From assembly GCF_001895925.1 (NCBI RefSeq), contig NZ_MPPI01000003.1, positions 62,001-126,000 of the forward strand: a stretch of DNA of 64,000 nt, read 5' to 3'. The notes under the pieces are model-generated. The model saw only the letters and a list, made by a program, of their open reading frames with translations, made no database searches and was not told the origin of the DNA. Position numbers and translations under genes: made by a program. The DNA comes from Phormidesmis priestleyi ULC007 (GTDB taxonomy: Bacteria; Cyanobacteriota; Cyanobacteriia; Leptolyngbyales; Leptolyngbyaceae). This document shows, piece after piece, positions 7,545 to 30,724 of the stretch. Each line of letters starts with the position of its first letter. Within the stretch, counting starts at the first letter, position 1.

Positions 7545-7903
7545 TTTACTTAAATCCGTCTGGCGATCGTCCGCGTAAAAACACTAGAGCAGATCAACCT
7601 AATCTACCGAGTCTTTGCGGAACATTGTCTCACCTGTTATACCCTCATTTGTCTATTTGTCTAATTACCCAAACTCGTCTGATTTGCGATCGAGACTTTT
7701 TCAAGCTTCCTAGCAAAGCCCACAGGTTTCGACATTCGAGTTAAAGTACTGGTAAAGATAGAATAAAAGTCTGTATTTTCACCTAAATGGGTTAACGCGG
7801 ACGCTTGAAGTTCATGTAAACTTTAAGTTACAGGGGCCTCAGCATCTAAGTTATCTCAGTGGAGCTTGATAGCTTCGATGCCCTCTCTGTTCTTGGAGCG
7901 TCT
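7545..7903. other. Divergent intergenic region, no gene seen
   Basis: 359 bases separate the barrel gene from the FecR-domain gene. The region is AT-rich around 7640-7680 and 7755-7840 and must hold both promoters. I see no RNA gene, strong hairpin or operator repeat. Confidence 0.5.
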
Positions 7904-9244
7904 ATGTCTCGTAATTGGTTCCTCGTCGTCACCCTAAGTCTTTTAAGCGCTAGTACGGCAATCTTTCCAATGCCTGTACGCGCTGAAACTCCTTTAAAAT
8001 TTGCTGATATTCAAGCGCTGCTTAGGCAAGTTCGTTTACTACCTAGAAACAAACCTGCACGCCCAGCCCGAGTTAATGAACGAATGCTTACGGGCGACGC
8101 ACTCTCAACGGCTCGTTCTTCTAAAGCCGATTTGCGCTTTAACGATGGCTCTTTTGCACGGGTCGGAGAGTTAGCATTATTTCGGTTCATTCCTAACACT
8201 CGGCAGTTTAACCTCTCAAACGGCACTGCACTGCTGCTAATTCCGCCAGGGCGAGGCAGAACTACGATCAAAACCCCTAACGTCTCAGCGGGAATTCGCG
8301 GATCGGCATTGTTTGTGCGGGTTGACGATCAGACGGGCACCACGATCGTCGGTGCGCTCACCAACAGTGGAATCACGGTGACAGATAATGTGACCAATCG
8401 ACTGGTAGAGCTGAAAGCAGGACAGATGGCAGTCGCCGATCCTAGAGGGTTGCGCTTATTTGATTTTGACCTCACCACGTTCTATCAGACCAGCAACATG
8501 GTTCGCGGGTTAAATTTAGAGAAGAAGCCTTCAGAGGCAAGTTCAGATAAAGATATTGCGGCAGTTCAAGGCGAAACGTCTGAGGCGCTCAGCAAACAAG
8601 AAAAAATTCCCGAAGAAGCGGTTGCTAAAAATCTAGACTTTATCAAGCTGTCTCCCCAGCCCTCTGGTTTCCCTGAAGAGAAAACGGCCACTCCGCTTCC
8701 CACTAATCTGCCTGCGATCGGAAAAGTTGCTCCAGACATCTTTGACAGAGGCACCTTGGGTTCGGGTCAGCCAACTTCATCTAACCCAGAAACTCCTAGA
8801 GTTGAACAGCCTGGCACTCCGCTCCCGACTCCTCCACTGCCTGATAATGTGGGACCAGGGACTGCACCTGTACCACCTCCACTGCCTGATAATGTGGGAC
8901 CAGGGACTGCACCTGTACCACCACCTGATGTGAGTCCAGGATCTGCACCTGTAACACCTAGTCTAACTCCAATTCAAAGAGAGCCGACTACTGCCATCAA
9001 AGCACCTGAACCAGCACCCATCCTGCCGACTCCTGCACCTGTGAGTCCACCTATTCAGGTCACTCCAGCGCCAACATCTGCACCAGTAGTGCCCTCTCCC
9101 ACTCCTAATTCAACTCCAACGGTTCCTGCAAATAATCCATCAAACTCAGCAGTTCCGACAACTCCAACACTGGCACCATCTCTAGCACCGACGATCGCGC
9201 CCGTGCTGCCTTTAGATGGCAGTTCAACACCTGCTCAAAGTTAA
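7904..9244 (+). CDS. Secreted FecR-domain protein with Pro-rich tail
   Basis: This 446-residue protein has a signal peptide (residues 1-28, ending PVRAE). A FecR domain follows, roughly residues 55-160, with RFNDGSFARVGELALFRF and a strongly conserved core reading TPNVSAGIRGSALFVRV. The second half is a long Pro/Thr/Ser-rich disordered tail containing a 45-bp tandem duplication. FecR domains in cyanobacteria are periplasmic or cell-wall modules of uncertain role, not necessarily iron sensing. The ATG at 7904 has GGAG five bases upstream and leads straight into the signal peptide, so it is preferred to the GTG at 7859. It is divergent from the barrel protein. Confidence 0.85.
   Translation: MSRNWFLVVTLSLLSASTAIFPMPVRAETPLKFADIQALLRQVRLLPRNKPARPARVNERMLTGDALSTARSSKADLRFNDGSFARVGELALFRFIPNTRQFNLSNGTALLLIPPGRGRTTIKTPNVSAGIRGSALFVRVDDQTGTTIVGALTNSGITVTDNVTNRLVELKAGQMAVADPRGLRLFDFDLTTFYQTSNMVRGLNLEKKPSEASSDKDIAAVQGETSEALSKQEKIPEEAVAKNLDFIKLSPQPSGFPEEKTATPLPTNLPAIGKVAPDIFDRGTLGSGQPTSSNPETPRVEQPGTPLPTPPLPDNVGPGTAPVPPPLPDNVGPGTAPVPPPDVSPGSAPVTPSLTPIQREPTTAIKAPEPAPILPTPAPVSPPIQVTPAPTSAPVVPSPTPNSTPTVPANNPSNSAVPTTPTLAPSLAPTIAPVLPLDGSSTPAQS
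8836..8925 (+). repeat. 45-bp in-frame tandem duplication
   Basis: Two copies start at 8836 and 8881 and are identical for at least 42 bases. They encode LPDNVGPGTAPVPPP twice within the proline-rich tail of the FecR-domain protein. The identity at synonymous positions implies a recent duplication. Confidence 0.9.
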
Positions 9245-23412: not shown

Positions 23413-23920
23413 AAGTTGAAGGGTTTCGGATGTAGAAAAACCTCTCCTTTGTCTACGTGAAAAGGAGCCTTTATTGAGGGTAGCAGGATTAGGATCGAGA
23501 ACGATATAAGTAGACAGACTTAGCGTCACTTCAATGAGTTCTTTCGCTTCGTTCTTTAGGGCTTCAGCCCCCCAGAATTGGGTAGGGTTAGGGCGGAGTA
23601 TTTATGCAGGAATTCTAATCTTGAGCCTGCACGTTCTTCTAATCGTCAAAATACCCTTAGGATCGTGAATTAAATAACCTGTAAAACTGGTGAGCGTCTT
23701 CTGCCCCCATCTCTCCTCCCCAAGGAGAAGGAATGGGGATGAGGGTCTTCTATTTAATTTCACCTAGCTACTTAGCTGGAAAACTCTAATTTGAGGAAGG
23801 CAATCATGTCATTTAGTTTTTAGAATCTGGCGAACTGCGTCACTTAGAACAGCAGAGGGTTAGAGAATCTGTGCTGACCCTTTCGTTTTATAGTGAGTAG
23901 CTAACTCTCTGAAGGCTTTG
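23413..23920. other. Intergenic region with repeat fragments
   Basis: 508 bases between sat and the divergent acyltransferase gene. At 23532-23572 lies AGTTCTTTCGCTTCGTTCTT followed by TCAGCCCCC, one end of the MITE-like family seen at 5.9 and 44 kb. At 23659-23678 lies AGGATCGTGAATTAAATAAC, which recurs exactly at 48521-48540. At 23701-23749 there is a C-rich/G-rich partial inverted repeat (CCCCCATC...GATGAGGG). No gene is seen. Confidence 0.6.
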
Positions 23921-24869: not shown

Positions 24870-25114
24870 TAACGTCAGTTCGGGTTAATCATTGCCTGCC
24901 TAGCGATTGAACCTGGTCTCCTGTGCAGCCTGCGATAGTTTGATCGTCCAATGCCGAGCGTCTCGCCCCCTAAATCCCCCATGATGGGGGACTTGGAATG
25001 GGCACAATTTCTTGAACGCGGTCGATCTTTCTGCTTCAAAGTCCCCCAAGTTTGGGGGATTTAGGGGGCGAAGGGAACTGAAACGGAGCAGTAACTTATC
25101 CCGAACTCAGGTTA
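24870..25114. repeat. MITE-like element, copy B
   Basis: The core arms are GCCCCCTAAATCCCCCA at 24965-24981 and its complement at 25053-25069. The outer ends are imperfect inverted repeats: ACGTCAGTTCGGGTTAA on the left, and on the right, read on the minus strand, ACCTGAGTTCGGGATAAG. It is longer than copies A and C and has no coding capacity. It fills most of the 456-base gap between the acyltransferase gene and the secreted-protein gene; the rest holds only the hairpin at 25202. Confidence 0.65.
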
Positions 25115-25261: not shown

Positions 25262-26551
25262 TTAGTCAGAGTTGAGAGACTGCCGCAGAGCTTCTTGAAA
25301 CTCTTTATTTTGAGCGGCAATTTCATTGATTACGTCTTCAGGAACATCCGCGTCAGAAACCGTTGGAGAAGTTTCTAGAAAAGATTGTACGATCGCAGAG
25401 TCAGAGAGTTCTCTAGCAGAGAAGCGCTGGAGCGGTTGGCGATTGGGGAAGTAGCGATCGCCATCATAACTTCCGCCCGCATAGCTGAATCCTTGAGAAA
25501 CCGTTCTCCCGTCAGGATCTTCGGCTGATTTCACAATCACATCGCCGCGAATAGCATCAATCACTAATTGGCTCCCTGATCGCCGAAACTGAATCAGCGT
25601 GAGTTGATCTGTCGCCGGAGCCACAATCACCTCACCGGGCGCGTAAACATCAAACGTACAGGATTTTGCGCCGATCGCGTTCGCAGTCTCTTTGAGCTTG
25701 AGCAGCAGTGTCGAAGCAATCACCCAGCCATTTCCTCTCGCGTTGAACTTACGATTGTCATCACAGTCTAGCGATGCCATTAAGTCCCGGTCTGAAGCCT
25801 TCCACTCCCAGGTACTCACCACTGAGCAATCGTCGCCTGAACTGGTTTGCAGACAATCTTTCAGCGCTTTTTCACACGGGTCGCCCGATCCTAACAATCC
25901 CATACTGTCAGTAGAACGAACGCCCCAGCCTGTCCCGTTATCGCCGATCGCGCTGCAATACTGCACCCGCACTAGCCCCAGCAGAAGATCTGGCAATCGT
26001 TGAGCTTTGAGAACCTGCTTTGTGGCAATGATGGGAGCCTGAAGAGGTAAGAATGCTGTCCCTCCGCCTTGCCCTGCCCGAATGCGAACTCCCTGAGGCA
26101 CACAGCCGCGATCGTCTCGGTTTTGGCTGGGTCGCCAGCCTAACAGCCCCTCGCCGCCTTTCAGAGTACAGGGGAAACGATAGCGGCTGTCGAGACTCTG
26201 CGATCGCACATAGGCGGTAGGCCCGATCAGGTGTTTGGACGTGACAGCAACGCCGCTCGGAGCCGAGATGCCGGTCAGCGTAGCATTAGAGGTTGTCCCT
26301 TTCGGAACAAAGAGATTCTCATGATAGTCTCGCAGTTGAGTGCGCCATGCCGCCGCCGATTCTGAGGTGCGTCCTCTTTCTAATAAGATGCTATTACCAC
26401 TTGTACGGGTGACAAAGAAAGCTTTGGGAACTGCGGCATGGCTGGCGATCGCAGTCAACAAAACAGAAACTGGAATAGATATGCTGATCGTAAACGGAAT
26501 CAGCGAAGAGACTAAAAGCCAATGCTGACGCGAATGCTTAGGTTGATTCAT
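25262..26551 (-). CDS. Secreted protein of unknown family, coupled to the caspase gene
   Basis: This 429-residue protein has an N-terminal signal or anchor segment (about 13-45, LVSSLIPFTISISIPVSVLL). The exported part has six to eight Cys residues, for example GSGDPCEKALKDC and DDCSVVSTWEW, suggesting disulfides. The C-terminal 130 residues include IDAIRGDVIVKSAEDPDGR and a QRFSARELSDSAI segment with a FecR-like feel. I cannot name the family. The ATG at 26551 overlaps the caspase gene stop as ATGA and has GAGG five bases upstream, so the two are translationally coupled. It is probably the external partner of the membrane-anchored caspase-STAND protein. Confidence 0.7.
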   Translation of the reverse strand: MNQPKHSRQHWLLVSSLIPFTISISIPVSVLLTAIASHAAVPKAFFVTRTSGNSILLERGRTSESAAAWRTQLRDYHENLFVPKGTTSNATLTGISAPSGVAVTSKHLIGPTAYVRSQSLDSRYRFPCTLKGGEGLLGWRPSQNRDDRGCVPQGVRIRAGQGGGTAFLPLQAPIIATKQVLKAQRLPDLLLGLVRVQYCSAIGDNGTGWGVRSTDSMGLLGSGDPCEKALKDCLQTSSGDDCSVVSTWEWKASDRDLMASLDCDDNRKFNARGNGWVIASTLLLKLKETANAIGAKSCTFDVYAPGEVIVAPATDQLTLIQFRRSGSQLVIDAIRGDVIVKSAEDPDGRTVSQGFSYAGGSYDGDRYFPNRQPLQRFSARELSDSAIVQSFLETSPTVSDADVPEDVINEIAAQNKEFQEALRQSLNSD

Positions 26552-29544
26552 AAATTCCTCGCTTGTGATGGTTGCCGACAAGTTTTAATGCGCTCGATCG
26601 CAGAGTCGTAATCTGTATCAAAAATCCAGAAGGCAAGCGTTCTTTTCTCAAATTTGGGAATGGTAGCGCAATCGAGATTCTCGAATACAGCAAAGTTTGC
26701 ACCATACCAGCCGCAGGCTTTGCCTTTTGCTTTGCGGGTTGCCTCTCGCCAAAGCCGATCTAGTTCTAAGAGGGTGTCACACGGCAGTTGCTCTCGTTCA
26801 TCGATCGAGGTGAGTCTGCCATCTTGATTTAAGTCAGCACCCGCTCCAAACCTCCCCATGAGAATTTGGTAGGTCGTTCGTAAGGCTCCTGTATATTGGT
26901 TTTCAAAGTCTGTGAATTGCGTATTGGGCAGCCGTTCGCCAAAATTTTGGGTGTTTAGCTGTTGCTTTAGAGCGGGAAAACGATATTTCTCAATTAATTC
27001 TGCTAAAGATTTGTCTGATTCCGCAGCGATCGCTTGAGTGTTTAAAAGTTGTTTTAATTGAAGTTCCGATAGCGTTTTAGAATCTGTTTGTTTTTGCAGA
27101 TTCAACAGTTTAATCGCGGTTTCTCGGAGTCTGCGGTAGTAAGCCAGCGCCAGCGAGATATCCGCTTCCTTTCCAGATTCGGCTTTGGCTTTCAGCGCCC
27201 GTGCCTCCTCGCGAAACGTGGGCAGAGCAGTGCTTAACTGCGAAATAGATTCTGGAACGTTTCCTGCTAGAAAGACTGCCGCCGTGGCTTCTTTTGCCCG
27301 TTGTTGTTGCCAGCCAAAGACTGCGGCGCTAATTGCAATCAGCGTGGGAAAGGCAATTCTGGCTGCGGTTTTCCACCGCTTGCGAACTTGTTCTTGTCGA
27401 TGCAGGCGATCGCGCTCTGCCTGACTGAGTTGAATAAACTCCTGCGCCAAGCTAGACAGCGGCATGGTGTCTGCATAAACCTGAAGAAAGTTTTCTGCCT
27501 CAGCCAGCTTTGATCCCTGCAACAAATAGGCCAGTTCTACAGGCTTGCCTTGTTGCACCCAGTCTTCAGCCGCATCTTCGATGGTGCGTTTTTGTTTGAG
27601 GGCAAGCCGATTTTCTTCAATCCACTGACGCAAGCGCGACCAATAGCGAATCAGTGCTTCGTGGGCAACATCAATCACCTGCACGCGATTGCCTGCACTG
27701 CGTTCTACCAGTTCCGAAGTCACCACTAGCCGTTCTGTAGACAGTCGCTGAATCACGCGATCGATCAACAATTCTGACTGCTTTGACGTGATTAAATCTC
27801 GTTTCAAGACCTGTCTGCGCGTGTCTTCGGTGCCTTCTCCTAGCTGCGTCAGTTCTAGAAAGATGCGTCGAGCCGTTTCTTGTTCCTGGGGGGATAGTGA
27901 AGCGTAAACTTCGTCTGCCCGTTGTTGTAGTGTGCCGCGAACGCCACCCATTCGATTGTAGGCTGCCAATGTGAGCCAGTTGACCGATCGTCGCTTCCAC
28001 AATTCAGTCAAGGTGTATTGCAGCAGCGGTAAGCTTCCTGGAGAACTCTCGACATCCAGAATCATCTGGGTTACAAGCTCTGCCTCAATGTCTAAATTGA
28101 CTTGCTTCGCAGGTTCCACGATCGCCTGGGCGAGTTCTTCGCGATTCATCGGCTTGACTGCCACCAGGTTGTTCTCGATGTGTTGCGCGAGTTGTGGATA
28201 TTGCAGACATTTGCTAAAGAAATCTGCGCGAAGCGTGATCACTAGACAAAGCTTCTTCCCAAGCTGCTGAATGGCTCCCAGCAGTCCCTCAAAAAACTGC
28301 TGTCGCTCCGTCTCATCTCGGCAGAGGGTAAAGCATTCTTCAAACTGATCAATCACCAACACTACGCGATCGCTTTCACAGGCAGCAATCAGTTGAGCAA
28401 AACCGACGGCTCCTGAGTCGATCAAAGCCTGTGCTTTGTGTAGTTGATCTGCCCGATCGATCGCAGACAATCCCGGTTCTAGAAATGCCTCTGCCAAACT
28501 TTGGCGAGGTTTGTCACCGGGTCTGATTACATAAACCGTCCATAAGTGGCTACCAGAAATTCGCTGACCGAGTTTTAGTTGATGCAATAACCCGGCTCGA
28601 ACCACCGAAGATTTACCACTGCCAGACGCGCCCACCACTGCCACAAACGAGCGATCGCGCACTCTTTCCAGCAGCACATCCGTGAGTGCAGTGCGTCCAT
28701 AAAAGAACCGGGCATCTTGATCAGTACGATCGAAATAAGCCAACCCCCGATAGGGACATTCATCCCCGGTTGCTTCTGAAACGCGGTCACTCACCTGCCC
28801 GGTCAAAATAATTTTGTTGCCGAAGTTGGCAAACAAAGGACGCTGACTGGCAGATTTGAGAGCTTGATTGACTTGCTCAGTCAGCGTAAAGTTTGTGACC
28901 AAACCATCTGAACGGTGCTGAGGATCGAGCGCTTGCAGCAATGCACCCGTCAAAACGCCATGACTGCCAGCCGTTTCTTCGTAGGCGACTTCATACTCTC
29001 GCGAGGCAGCAATAAAACAGCGATCGTGCTGTTCTAAACTACCGGGGTCTGCCTCTTCCAGGTTTTCTTTAAAGTTGAGCAGTTCGCCACTGTAGCAGCA
29101 GTCTAACCAAATAATTTGTTGCCGAATCGGACTTTCTTGCAGTAGTTCGCGCAGCCACTTCAGGCGTAACCCCCACTGATTCGCGTTGGGACTCACATCA
29201 CTCGTTGCCAGAAAGCCTTCTTGAATGCCCCGGTCTTTGCGTAACCCATGCCCTGAGAAGTAGAACAGAGCCGTTTCAGGAATGTGGTTTCCGGTCGGCT
29301 TAAAGAGTTGAACGAGTGCCTCTTCGAGTTGAGTCAGGGTGACTTTGGTTTTGCGTCCAACTCGTGTCGCCTGTGTTTCTGGACGGATGACTTCGGGAAG
29401 TCGCCGGACTCGAAACCCACCGGATTGCGTCAAGCATTGTGCGATCGCTTCTGCATCTTCAGCCGGAGCTTTCAGATTGCTAAGTTGTTCGCAATCATAG
29501 AGATTAATTCCAACAACAAGCGCATCCCGACCCATGACAACCAT
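26548..29544 (-). CDS. Caspase-nSTAND fusion with transmembrane segment and EF-hand-like loop
   Basis: This 998-residue protein has several domains. Residues 1-250 form a peptidase C14 (metacaspase-like) domain with the catalytic pair His99 (FYFSGHGL) and Cys149/150 (WLDCCYSGE). An nSTAND1-type P-loop ATPase follows: entry motif CPYRGLAYF at 263, Walker A GASGSGKSS at 305-313, Walker B VLVIDQFEE at 395-403, and a winged-helix-like helical part to about 650. A transmembrane segment lies near 725-745 (FPTLIAISAAVFGW). The C-terminal 250 residues are helical, with a Ca-binding-like loop DLNQDGRLTSID at 904-915, and lack the WD40 repeats common in this class. An alternative ATG is at 29535. Such proteins act in conflict or cell-death signalling. 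Confidence 0.9.
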   Translation of the reverse strand: MVVMGRDALVVGINLYDCEQLSNLKAPAEDAEAIAQCLTQSGGFRVRRLPEVIRPETQATRVGRKTKVTLTQLEEALVQLFKPTGNHIPETALFYFSGHGLRKDRGIQEGFLATSDVSPNANQWGLRLKWLRELLQESPIRQQIIWLDCCYSGELLNFKENLEEADPGSLEQHDRCFIAASREYEVAYEETAGSHGVLTGALLQALDPQHRSDGLVTNFTLTEQVNQALKSASQRPLFANFGNKIILTGQVSDRVSEATGDECPYRGLAYFDRTDQDARFFYGRTALTDVLLERVRDRSFVAVVGASGSGKSSVVRAGLLHQLKLGQRISGSHLWTVYVIRPGDKPRQSLAEAFLEPGLSAIDRADQLHKAQALIDSGAVGFAQLIAACESDRVVLVIDQFEECFTLCRDETERQQFFEGLLGAIQQLGKKLCLVITLRADFFSKCLQYPQLAQHIENNLVAVKPMNREELAQAIVEPAKQVNLDIEAELVTQMILDVESSPGSLPLLQYTLTELWKRRSVNWLTLAAYNRMGGVRGTLQQRADEVYASLSPQEQETARRIFLELTQLGEGTEDTRRQVLKRDLITSKQSELLIDRVIQRLSTERLVVTSELVERSAGNRVQVIDVAHEALIRYWSRLRQWIEENRLALKQKRTIEDAAEDWVQQGKPVELAYLLQGSKLAEAENFLQVYADTMPLSSLAQEFIQLSQAERDRLHRQEQVRKRWKTAARIAFPTLIAISAAVFGWQQQRAKEATAAVFLAGNVPESISQLSTALPTFREEARALKAKAESGKEADISLALAYYRRLRETAIKLLNLQKQTDSKTLSELQLKQLLNTQAIAAESDKSLAELIEKYRFPALKQQLNTQNFGERLPNTQFTDFENQYTGALRTTYQILMGRFGAGADLNQDGRLTSIDEREQLPCDTLLELDRLWREATRKAKGKACGWYGANFAVFENLDCATIPKFEKRTLAFWIFDTDYDSAIERIKTCRQPSQARNL

Positions 29545-29735
29545 GAACGTAGGAACAGTTTATATTTGCATTGTAAGCAGTATTTTTGATGCTTACGCTC
29601 ACCCTTTCAGGTACTATTACCATCAGCAAACACGCTCTCGATTCCTCCATCAGGAATGGCTTGACGAAACTTAACTTTCTCAGTCAGCATAGGCGTAAAT
29701 CGGGAGACCCACAAATTTTAAGCCTTACAAAATAA

Positions 29736-30131
29736 ATGACTAAACTAACCCCCATTAGACTCGACGACGACACCGTAATTTATATCGAAACGACCGAAGA
29801 TGCGATCGCGACGATTGTTCGACCGGGTTCAGCAGAAGAGGAAGAAGTTCCTGTCACACGGGGTTTCCCCTCGGTTGTTGAAACTCAAAAACAGGCGATT
29901 CAGAACTTTCAAGCGATCGAAGGAACCATTCGCGCTTATACGACCTACACGCTCAGAGCTTTTAGAAACTTAGCAGTGGCTAACGTTGATAAAGTCACGC
30001 TGAGATTTGGCATTGAACTAGGTGGCGAAGCGGGAATTCCCTATGTCACAAAAGGCACTGCTAAGAGCAATTTAAATATTGAAGTTGAGTGTTCCTTTCC
30101 TGAACATAAGTCTGGGGAAAGACCCGTTTAG
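29736..30131 (+). CDS. TRYPCO1-like (CU044_2847 family) small protein
   Basis: This 131-residue cytosolic protein begins with PIRLDDDTVIYIETTEDA, then a linker and a predicted helix, and ends in a strand-rich segment, KVTLRFGIELGGEAGIPYVT. The layout matches the family often labelled CU044_2847, the trypsin-co-occurring domain 1. From memory, that domain is recurrently linked to caspase, trypsin and STAND conflict systems. It is divergent from the caspase-nSTAND gene with a 191-base gap and followed by a lipoprotein gene. The assignment rests on pattern recognition only. Confidence 0.7.
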   Translation: MTKLTPIRLDDDTVIYIETTEDAIATIVRPGSAEEEEVPVTRGFPSVVETQKQAIQNFQAIEGTIRAYTTYTLRAFRNLAVANVDKVTLRFGIELGGEAGIPYVTKGTAKSNLNIEVECSFPEHKSGERPV

Positions 30132-30202
30132 CTAATTCAATCTCTACATTATCCGCTTGTCTTAGATTTTTTGCGGCACTACCCTTTAGTCTGCCTACAG
30201 CA

Positions 30203-30724
30203 ATGAAGCCTCGAATCCTAACCTGGTTAGCAATTAGTGCTGCATTCCTCACTCTCACCAGTTGCACTGAGGAAAATGGGATTGTGCCGCAAACTCGCTG
30301 TAATAACGCAATCGCGATCGCGACTCAAACCTGGGAAGTGGACTATTACATCAGCAAAACCAGTGGTGGTTTGAATAGTCGTCGGACTCACTCGTTTCAA
30401 AGCAATACATTGACCAACGTGAATGGGGAAAAACCTGCGAGTGCGGTTTCTGGTTCAGATGATGAGGGTATTTGGTGGGCTACCTTGCCTCCTCGTCCGA
30501 CTGCTGATGAGGTCGATCAGCACCGCGACATTCAAGAACATAATGACCCGCCCACTTTACAACGATCGGTTGATTATCAACTTCGTTGTGGGGCTAAGAC
30601 ACTGTTGACGGACGCTCTAACTTATCGGGAGGTCAGCAGAGCGGTTCGCTCAGGACAAGTGGCGAGAGTGAGCTACTTCGGAAATCGGGCGCTAAAGGTT
30701 GAAGCCAAGGAGAGCGATCAGTAA
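30203..30724 (+). CDS. Predicted lipoprotein of unknown function
   Basis: This 173-residue protein has a lipoprotein signal peptide ending in the lipobox LTSC with Cys21. The mature part contains three further Cys (QTRCNNAIA and YQLRCGAKT among them) and Trp-rich segments such as WWATLPPRP. I recognise no family. It lies 71 bases after the TRYPCO1-like gene on the same strand, so it is likely part of the same unit and acts at the membrane outside the cytosol. Confidence 0.7.
   Translation: MKPRILTWLAISAAFLTLTSCTEENGIVPQTRCNNAIAIATQTWEVDYYISKTSGGLNSRRTHSFQSNTLTNVNGEKPASAVSGSDDEGIWWATLPPRPTADEVDQHRDIQEHNDPPTLQRSVDYQLRCGAKTLLTDALTYREVSRAVRSGQVARVSYFGNRALKVEAKESDQ

Follow-up and report, generated by a model that had tools for sequence, protein, structure and literature searches.

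A conserved receptor and secreted-protein gene pair with exchanged effectors suggests a modular surface alarm in cyanobacteria

Four adjacent genes in the window analysed here, a 64,000-nt stretch of Phormidesmis priestleyi ULC007 (contig NZ_MPPI01000003.1; all coordinates are those of the whole window), raise the question of which of them belong together and whether a signal from outside the cytoplasm could reach a cytosolic caspase through them. The locus (25262-30724) had been described from the sequence as one divergent unit comprising a caspase fused to an nSTAND ATPase and a membrane segment, an exported protein, a TRYPCO1-like protein and a lipoprotein. With respect to layout this description was accurate, as all four ORFs are present and both the 4-base overlap and the 191-base divergent gap lie where they had been placed (Table 1). 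The ATGA overlap of the receptor gene with the gene for the secreted partner (SEC) likely reflects translational coupling, and the same -4 overlap is present at L030, L072, L085, L129 and L154. The divergent gap, which measures 118-192 bases at L030, L137, L140, L145 and L151, is the probable shared promoter region of P0002 and Trypco1; a promoter scan of this region in the window returned nothing above chance.

Table 1. Positions of the locus features in the window
Feature	Position	Strand	Details
Receptor gene P0002 (caspase-nSTAND)	26548-29544	-	998 aa; Pfam C14, nSTAND1; TM and Lys/Arg bias
Parts of P0002 (residues)			caspase 8-237; nSTAND1 264-668; predicted TM helix ~731-750; predicted extracytoplasmic CTD ~755-998
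CTD coding part of P0002	26551-27300	-	family alignments, AF2 model, GUN4 matches
SEC gene P0001, secreted protein	25262-26551	-	429 aa from its ATG; hydrophobic N-terminus
ATGA overlap, P0002 stop/SEC start	26548-26551	-	4 bases, read from sequence
Trypco1 protein P0003	29736-30131	+	PF19493; divergent from P0002
Divergent intergenic region, P0002/Trypco1	29545-29735	.	191 bases
Lipoprotein P0004	30203-30724	+	lipobox LTSC read in sequence

Several other features of the window and its relatives were recorded. An inverted-repeat element with 28-nt arms that are 86% complementary lies between the acyltransferase and SEC genes (24963-25071); it is MITE-like, with dispersed copies in four related genomes (G001, G008, G009 and G013). 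A second short dispersed repeat family (23653-23780) has many copies in G001 and G008, and a separate secreted FecR-domain protein is encoded at 7859-9244 (FecR part 8099-8353). When relatives were compared for an empty site, the locus flanks fell on different contigs in G001.

The receptor P0002 is indeed a fusion of caspase and nSTAND ATPase. Specifically, Pfam assigns Peptidase_C14 (8.4e-16) and nSTAND1 (9.9e-129) to the segments listed in Table 1, the Walker A motif (P-loop) is intact, and the His/Cys dyad that defines an orthocaspase is preserved (FSGHG and DCCYSG). The membrane segment is weak in this member, its best 17-residue mean hydropathy being 1.78, and was missed at a 19-residue cut-off; it is nonetheless real. 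In almost every relative the segment aligned with it is an unambiguous TM helix, and a hydrophobic segment precedes the C-terminal domain (CTD) in 42/42 receptors examined. Around this segment the same 42 receptors carry 209 Lys and Arg residues on the N-terminal side and 81 on the C-terminal side, an excess that predicts an N-in/C-out topology with the caspase and ATPase inside and the CTD outside. For a cyanobacterium, outside may mean the periplasm or the thylakoid lumen. PADLOC recognised the caspase through its generic model and added two ATPase matches, both weak; the P0002 sequence had no match in the PDB, and Pfam found none of the MoxR-vWA-VMAP triad domains of VMAP ternary systems in the four locus proteins.

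Across the divergent gap, P0003 is a Trypco1 protein, an identification on which the original prediction depended: it matches PF19493 at 2.3e-22 (79.8 bits), far above the curated cut-off of 24.6, and NCBIfam NF041216 at 2.5e-25. Of the 11 loci with a fused or split caspase, 7 have Trypco1 next to the caspase, six of them divergent within 118-192 bases; Trypco1 occurs in 1/32 other CTD loci, a trypsin version. It is not exclusive to CTD loci, as 43/58 relatives hold about 100 copies, four of which are at such loci. Trypco1 is an accessory of protease-bearing versions, which matches its association with peptidases in the published passages cited here (PMC7159879, PMC10907252). That caspase, STAND and TRYPCO1 parts are known to recur together was an overstatement. 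In those passages, Trypco1 is defined with trypsin and caspase systems pair with alpha/beta-hydrolase or EACC1 (both PMC7159879), although PMC10907252 reports loci that combine Trypco1 with peptidases resembling trypsin or caspase.

The lipoprotein P0004, which has no family in Pfam or NCBIfam, behaves differently. It has homologues in 22/58 relatives, and outside this window no caspase, Trypco1 or SEC gene accompanies any of them within the flanks examined (1.5 kb in most genomes, ~8 kb in four); it is missing from all 42 other CTD loci. Some of the homologues sit in an ORF of ~480-510 aa. We therefore rejected the lipoprotein as a system component; it is a chance neighbour. The gene order in the window does suggest a four-gene unit in which lipoprotein and secreted protein both serve one envelope-signal system, yet a lipoprotein family that is conserved and still linked nowhere else makes this extremely improbable. 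What stands of the predicted unit is the linked caspase-nSTAND and SEC genes, with Trypco1 as a frequent accessory. Likewise, of the two genes whose neighbourhoods had been singled out for checking, SEC is found beside the receptor gene in relatives and the lipoprotein never is outside this window.

The first SEC homologues beside caspase-nSTAND genes came from G013 and G009, where a divergent Trypco1 gene and, further downstream, a COP23 gene are also present. The CTD then served as an independent query, both against 390 genomes and against 84,980 species genomes in a single scan that rests on two short peptide patterns from a closer CTD subset and is thus not exhaustive; gene models at CTD loci were made by script, with HMMs built in this analysis. 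A re-trained CTD profile separated true matches (E < 1e-20, 22 genomes) by a clean gap from a second tier no better than 5e-7. EF-hands were considered as the source of this second tier and rejected, since the matches inspected were GUN4-like proteins with the GUN4 core. The searches yielded 43 distinct loci with a CTD, and every one of those with a named source is cyanobacterial. In 40 of the 43 the next gene 3' of the CTD gene is SEC, in the same orientation (within 200 bases in 38/40); the remaining three loci run into a contig end within 600 bases. Moreover, among the 390 genomes the SEC core is present in 22/22 with a CTD versus 9/368 without (one of the nine at a contig edge), a co-occurrence with a Fisher p of 4e-29 when phylogeny is ignored. 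The conserved unit is thus the receptor gene with the SEC gene, and the conserved arrangement is Trypco1 / receptor - SEC, followed in some genomes by COP23, with the lipoprotein excluded.

Variations on this arrangement were also seen. Tandem SEC genes, two behind one receptor, occur at L087, L122, L129 and L141, and a COP23-family secreted gene is the third operon gene at L030, L145 and L140. The nine genomes with SEC and no CTD indicate that SEC has other uses. SEC homologues without a CTD receptor lie beside other genes at L032, L068-L071 and L078, with an LRR-TPR-CHAT protein nearby in L032 and an LRR-pentapeptide protein and M48 peptidase adjoining in L069; a second SEC-using system possibly lies behind such loci.

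The secreted protein had been tied to the caspase, and as a linked gene pair that association holds. What SEC follows, however, is not the caspase but the CTD beyond the TM helix: relatives retain CTD and SEC while their N-terminal or upstream module is CHAT, trypsin/TIR or another. At CTD loci the caspase is fused in ten, split in one and a separate gene in three (two of these with TIR), CHAT occurs at nine, trypsin with TIR at two, and the others have HetE-N, NACHT or unassigned small proteins as neighbours, some of these assignments resting on sequence likeness to a Pfam-tested member of the group. A maximum-likelihood tree of 42 CTDs requires 17 changes of effector label against a minimum of 5, a count that is indicative because the label "other" is a mixture. 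The cytosolic effector is thus swapped repeatedly on a constant nSTAND-TM-CTD plus SEC chassis, a pattern that suggests a modular alarm at the bacterial surface. Copies of receptor or SEC that are broken were seen at L130, L126, L158/L131 and L156/L127; L130 has a transposase-like ORF between NTPase and CTD, and a DDE transposase gene is adjacent at L126. Such broken copies and transposases suggest rapid turnover as in defence genes.

As judged from its sequence, the CTD appears to be an undescribed helical domain with four near-invariant cysteines (kept in 39-40 of 41 aligned sequences), a DxNxDG loop and a GUN4-related core. The loop, found in 35/42 CTDs and reading DLNQDG in P0002, resembles a calcium loop, through which calcium might play a part; the dockerin profile reaches E 0.22 in P0002, and EF-hand_5 gives 0.14 at best. 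The AF2 model is confident (pLDDT 86.5, pTM 0.85), but Foldseek found no match for it with E up to 0.001, and the CTD profile had no sequence match in the PDB. Pfam GUN4 matches 19 of 27 CTD members (best 4.2e-7, core only), and hhalign aligns 61 columns of CTD and GUN4 at P 1e-4, with controls above 0.1; the rest of the GUN4 profile is unmatched, and P0002 has no Pfam GUN4 match at E up to 1. The core therefore seems related to GUN4, a relationship that does not extend to a claim of porphyrin binding.

These GUN4 matches, the known fusions of GUN4 to orthocaspases (in the parts of PMC8283722 and PMC5756287 cited here; the former lists 29 orthocaspases with GUN4) and the COP23 gene after SEC in three genomes would fit a housekeeping sensor for photosynthesis or redox instead of a conflict system, in which a GUN4-derived CTD follows tetrapyrroles or the redox state of the periplasm or thylakoid lumen and COP23 is a partner in some genomes. 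We regard this as quite unlikely, as only ~60 columns match GUN4, no GUN4 structure is among the fold matches listed, and the patchy spread (22/390), the repeated exchange of effectors, the broken copies and the inserted transposases are reminiscent of conflict genes.

SEC itself is well modelled (AF2 pLDDT 81.8, pTM 0.80), with sequence identities near 25% and two cysteines, C128 and C150, invariant in 24/24 sequences; conserved cysteines in both CTD and SEC are expected for an oxidising compartment outside the cytosol. Its tails vary, with CAP in 8 of the 22 members scanned and SLH, TonB_C, ASH-type Ig domains and SPOR with NAGPA in others, and the SEC of this window has no recognised tail domain. 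A PDB search with the SEC profile brought up nothing but CAP structures, which it reached by way of the CAP tails that relatives carry. Other cells could be the targets of CAP and phosphodiester-glycosidase tails, and this, together with the occurrence of SEC without a CTD beside the LRR-TPR-CHAT gene, would be compatible with SEC as an unrelated secreted passenger of the operon, such as a CAP-type extracellular effector, with the CTD merely an anchor. The near-perfect linkage of CTD and SEC despite effector changes and such divergent SEC sequences makes this very unlikely, and the SEC of this window lacks any such tail.

A different role for SEC is raised by its weak profile similarity to FecR (hhalign 56-80% probability, in an alignment that includes signal-peptide columns). 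In Foldseek the SEC model had no match with E up to 0.001, and the periplasmic domain of PupR, an anti-sigma regulator of FecR type, was the only listed match above 0.5 probability (E 0.79). SEC could accordingly be a brake that, like FecR or an anti-sigma factor, holds the receptor off while bound and frees the caspase when it is lost or displaced upon damage to the envelope or entry of a phage. Translational coupling would favour the stoichiometry typical of inhibitor pairs. Set against this, no SEC scanned reaches Pfam FecR (PF04773), so that we rejected SEC as a FecR protein and take the similarity as suggestive at most; a braking role appears rather unlikely.

The model we prefer, with confidence slightly better than even, is a two-gene transmembrane alarm of NLR type in which SEC gates the extracytoplasmic CTD to release the cytosolic caspase. 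It starts from the observed linkage, conservation and effector swapping and from the predicted topology, a receptor with caspase and nSTAND1 ATPase in the cytosol, a single membrane crossing and a Cys-rich CTD beyond it. We infer that co-translated SEC would dock on the CTD and convey either the envelope's state or the presence of an extracellular ligand, and that in relatives the variable tail (CAP, SPOR, SLH or TonB_C) would supply wall anchoring or ligand binding. Altered contact between SEC and CTD would then switch the nSTAND module to an ATP-bound oligomer, bringing caspases together for target cleavage and hence cell arrest or death, with Trypco1, where present, as a putative adaptor or brake of the protease. 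The short TM helix of this member, its SEC without a recognisable tail and the nine genomes with SEC and no CTD weigh against this model. An extracytoplasmic part coupled to a cytosolic protease, as originally proposed, is thus still the best reading, with the lipoprotein no part of it. More tentatively, and at somewhat less than even confidence, these proteins may represent a family of transmembrane NLR-like receptors that are signalled by a dedicated secreted, envelope-attached co-receptor, with a modular effector and sensing tail around a new GUN4-derived domain as the hub.

The bacterial NLR-like proteins studied so far mostly survey the cytosol. If our model is true, bacteria possess, in addition, death switches that are triggered at the surface and whose effectors can be interchanged, and cyanobacterial orthocaspases, for which upstream signals are largely unknown, would gain a concrete candidate input; under the co-receptor reading, the pair would be what a surface receptor and its extracellular ligand-binding partner are elsewhere, in bacterial form. 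In the main-text passages of the open-access literature considered, we found no description of the nSTAND-TM-CTD and SEC pair. Among known systems, bNACHT, Avs and other NACHT/STAND defence proteins have the order effector-STAND-sensor with swapped effectors and are cytosolic sensors of phage proteins. Our receptors share this order and this swapping, but an extracytoplasmic domain with a secreted partner takes the C-terminal sensor position. EACC1-caspase (System 4, Kaur et al. 2020, PMC7159879) and EACC2-caspase systems (Kaur et al. 2021, PMC8195603), as described in the passages cited, are similar in being two-gene units with an N-terminal caspase, variable domains including STAND and membrane association, some with a TM segment and extracellular domain. 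There, however, the caspase is constant and the other parts vary, whereas in our loci nSTAND-TM-CTD and SEC stay the same and it is the caspase that is exchanged; the EACC1 systems are, moreover, mainly actinobacterial, and here the partner is secreted with no EACC1 gene. EACC1-caspase membership was rejected, as NCBIfam caspase_w_EACC1 (NF047832) scores 107.1 bits against a cut-off of 140, and the Trypco1 and SEC neighbours of P0002 have no EACC1 match in Pfam or NCBIfam, leaving no 5' EACC1 gene. DGR-diversified antigen sensors (PMC10907252) are also STAND sensors, with periplasmic placement of the target suggested, but the passages cited describe them as using a reverse transcriptase and CLec variable domains, and the proteins analysed here show neither. 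Trichodesmium caspase-CHASE2 and Microcystis MaOC6 likewise combine a cytosolic caspase, a TM segment and an outward C-terminal sensor, but with different sensor domains and, in the parts of these reports cited, no STAND switch or dedicated secreted partner (PMC3501461, PMC5756287). Finally, GUN4-orthocaspase fusions (PMC8283722, as listed there) join caspase and GUN4-related sequence in one polypeptide as ours do, whereas our CTD matches the GUN4 core only, carries extra cysteines and the DxNxDG loop, and lies beyond a TM helix.
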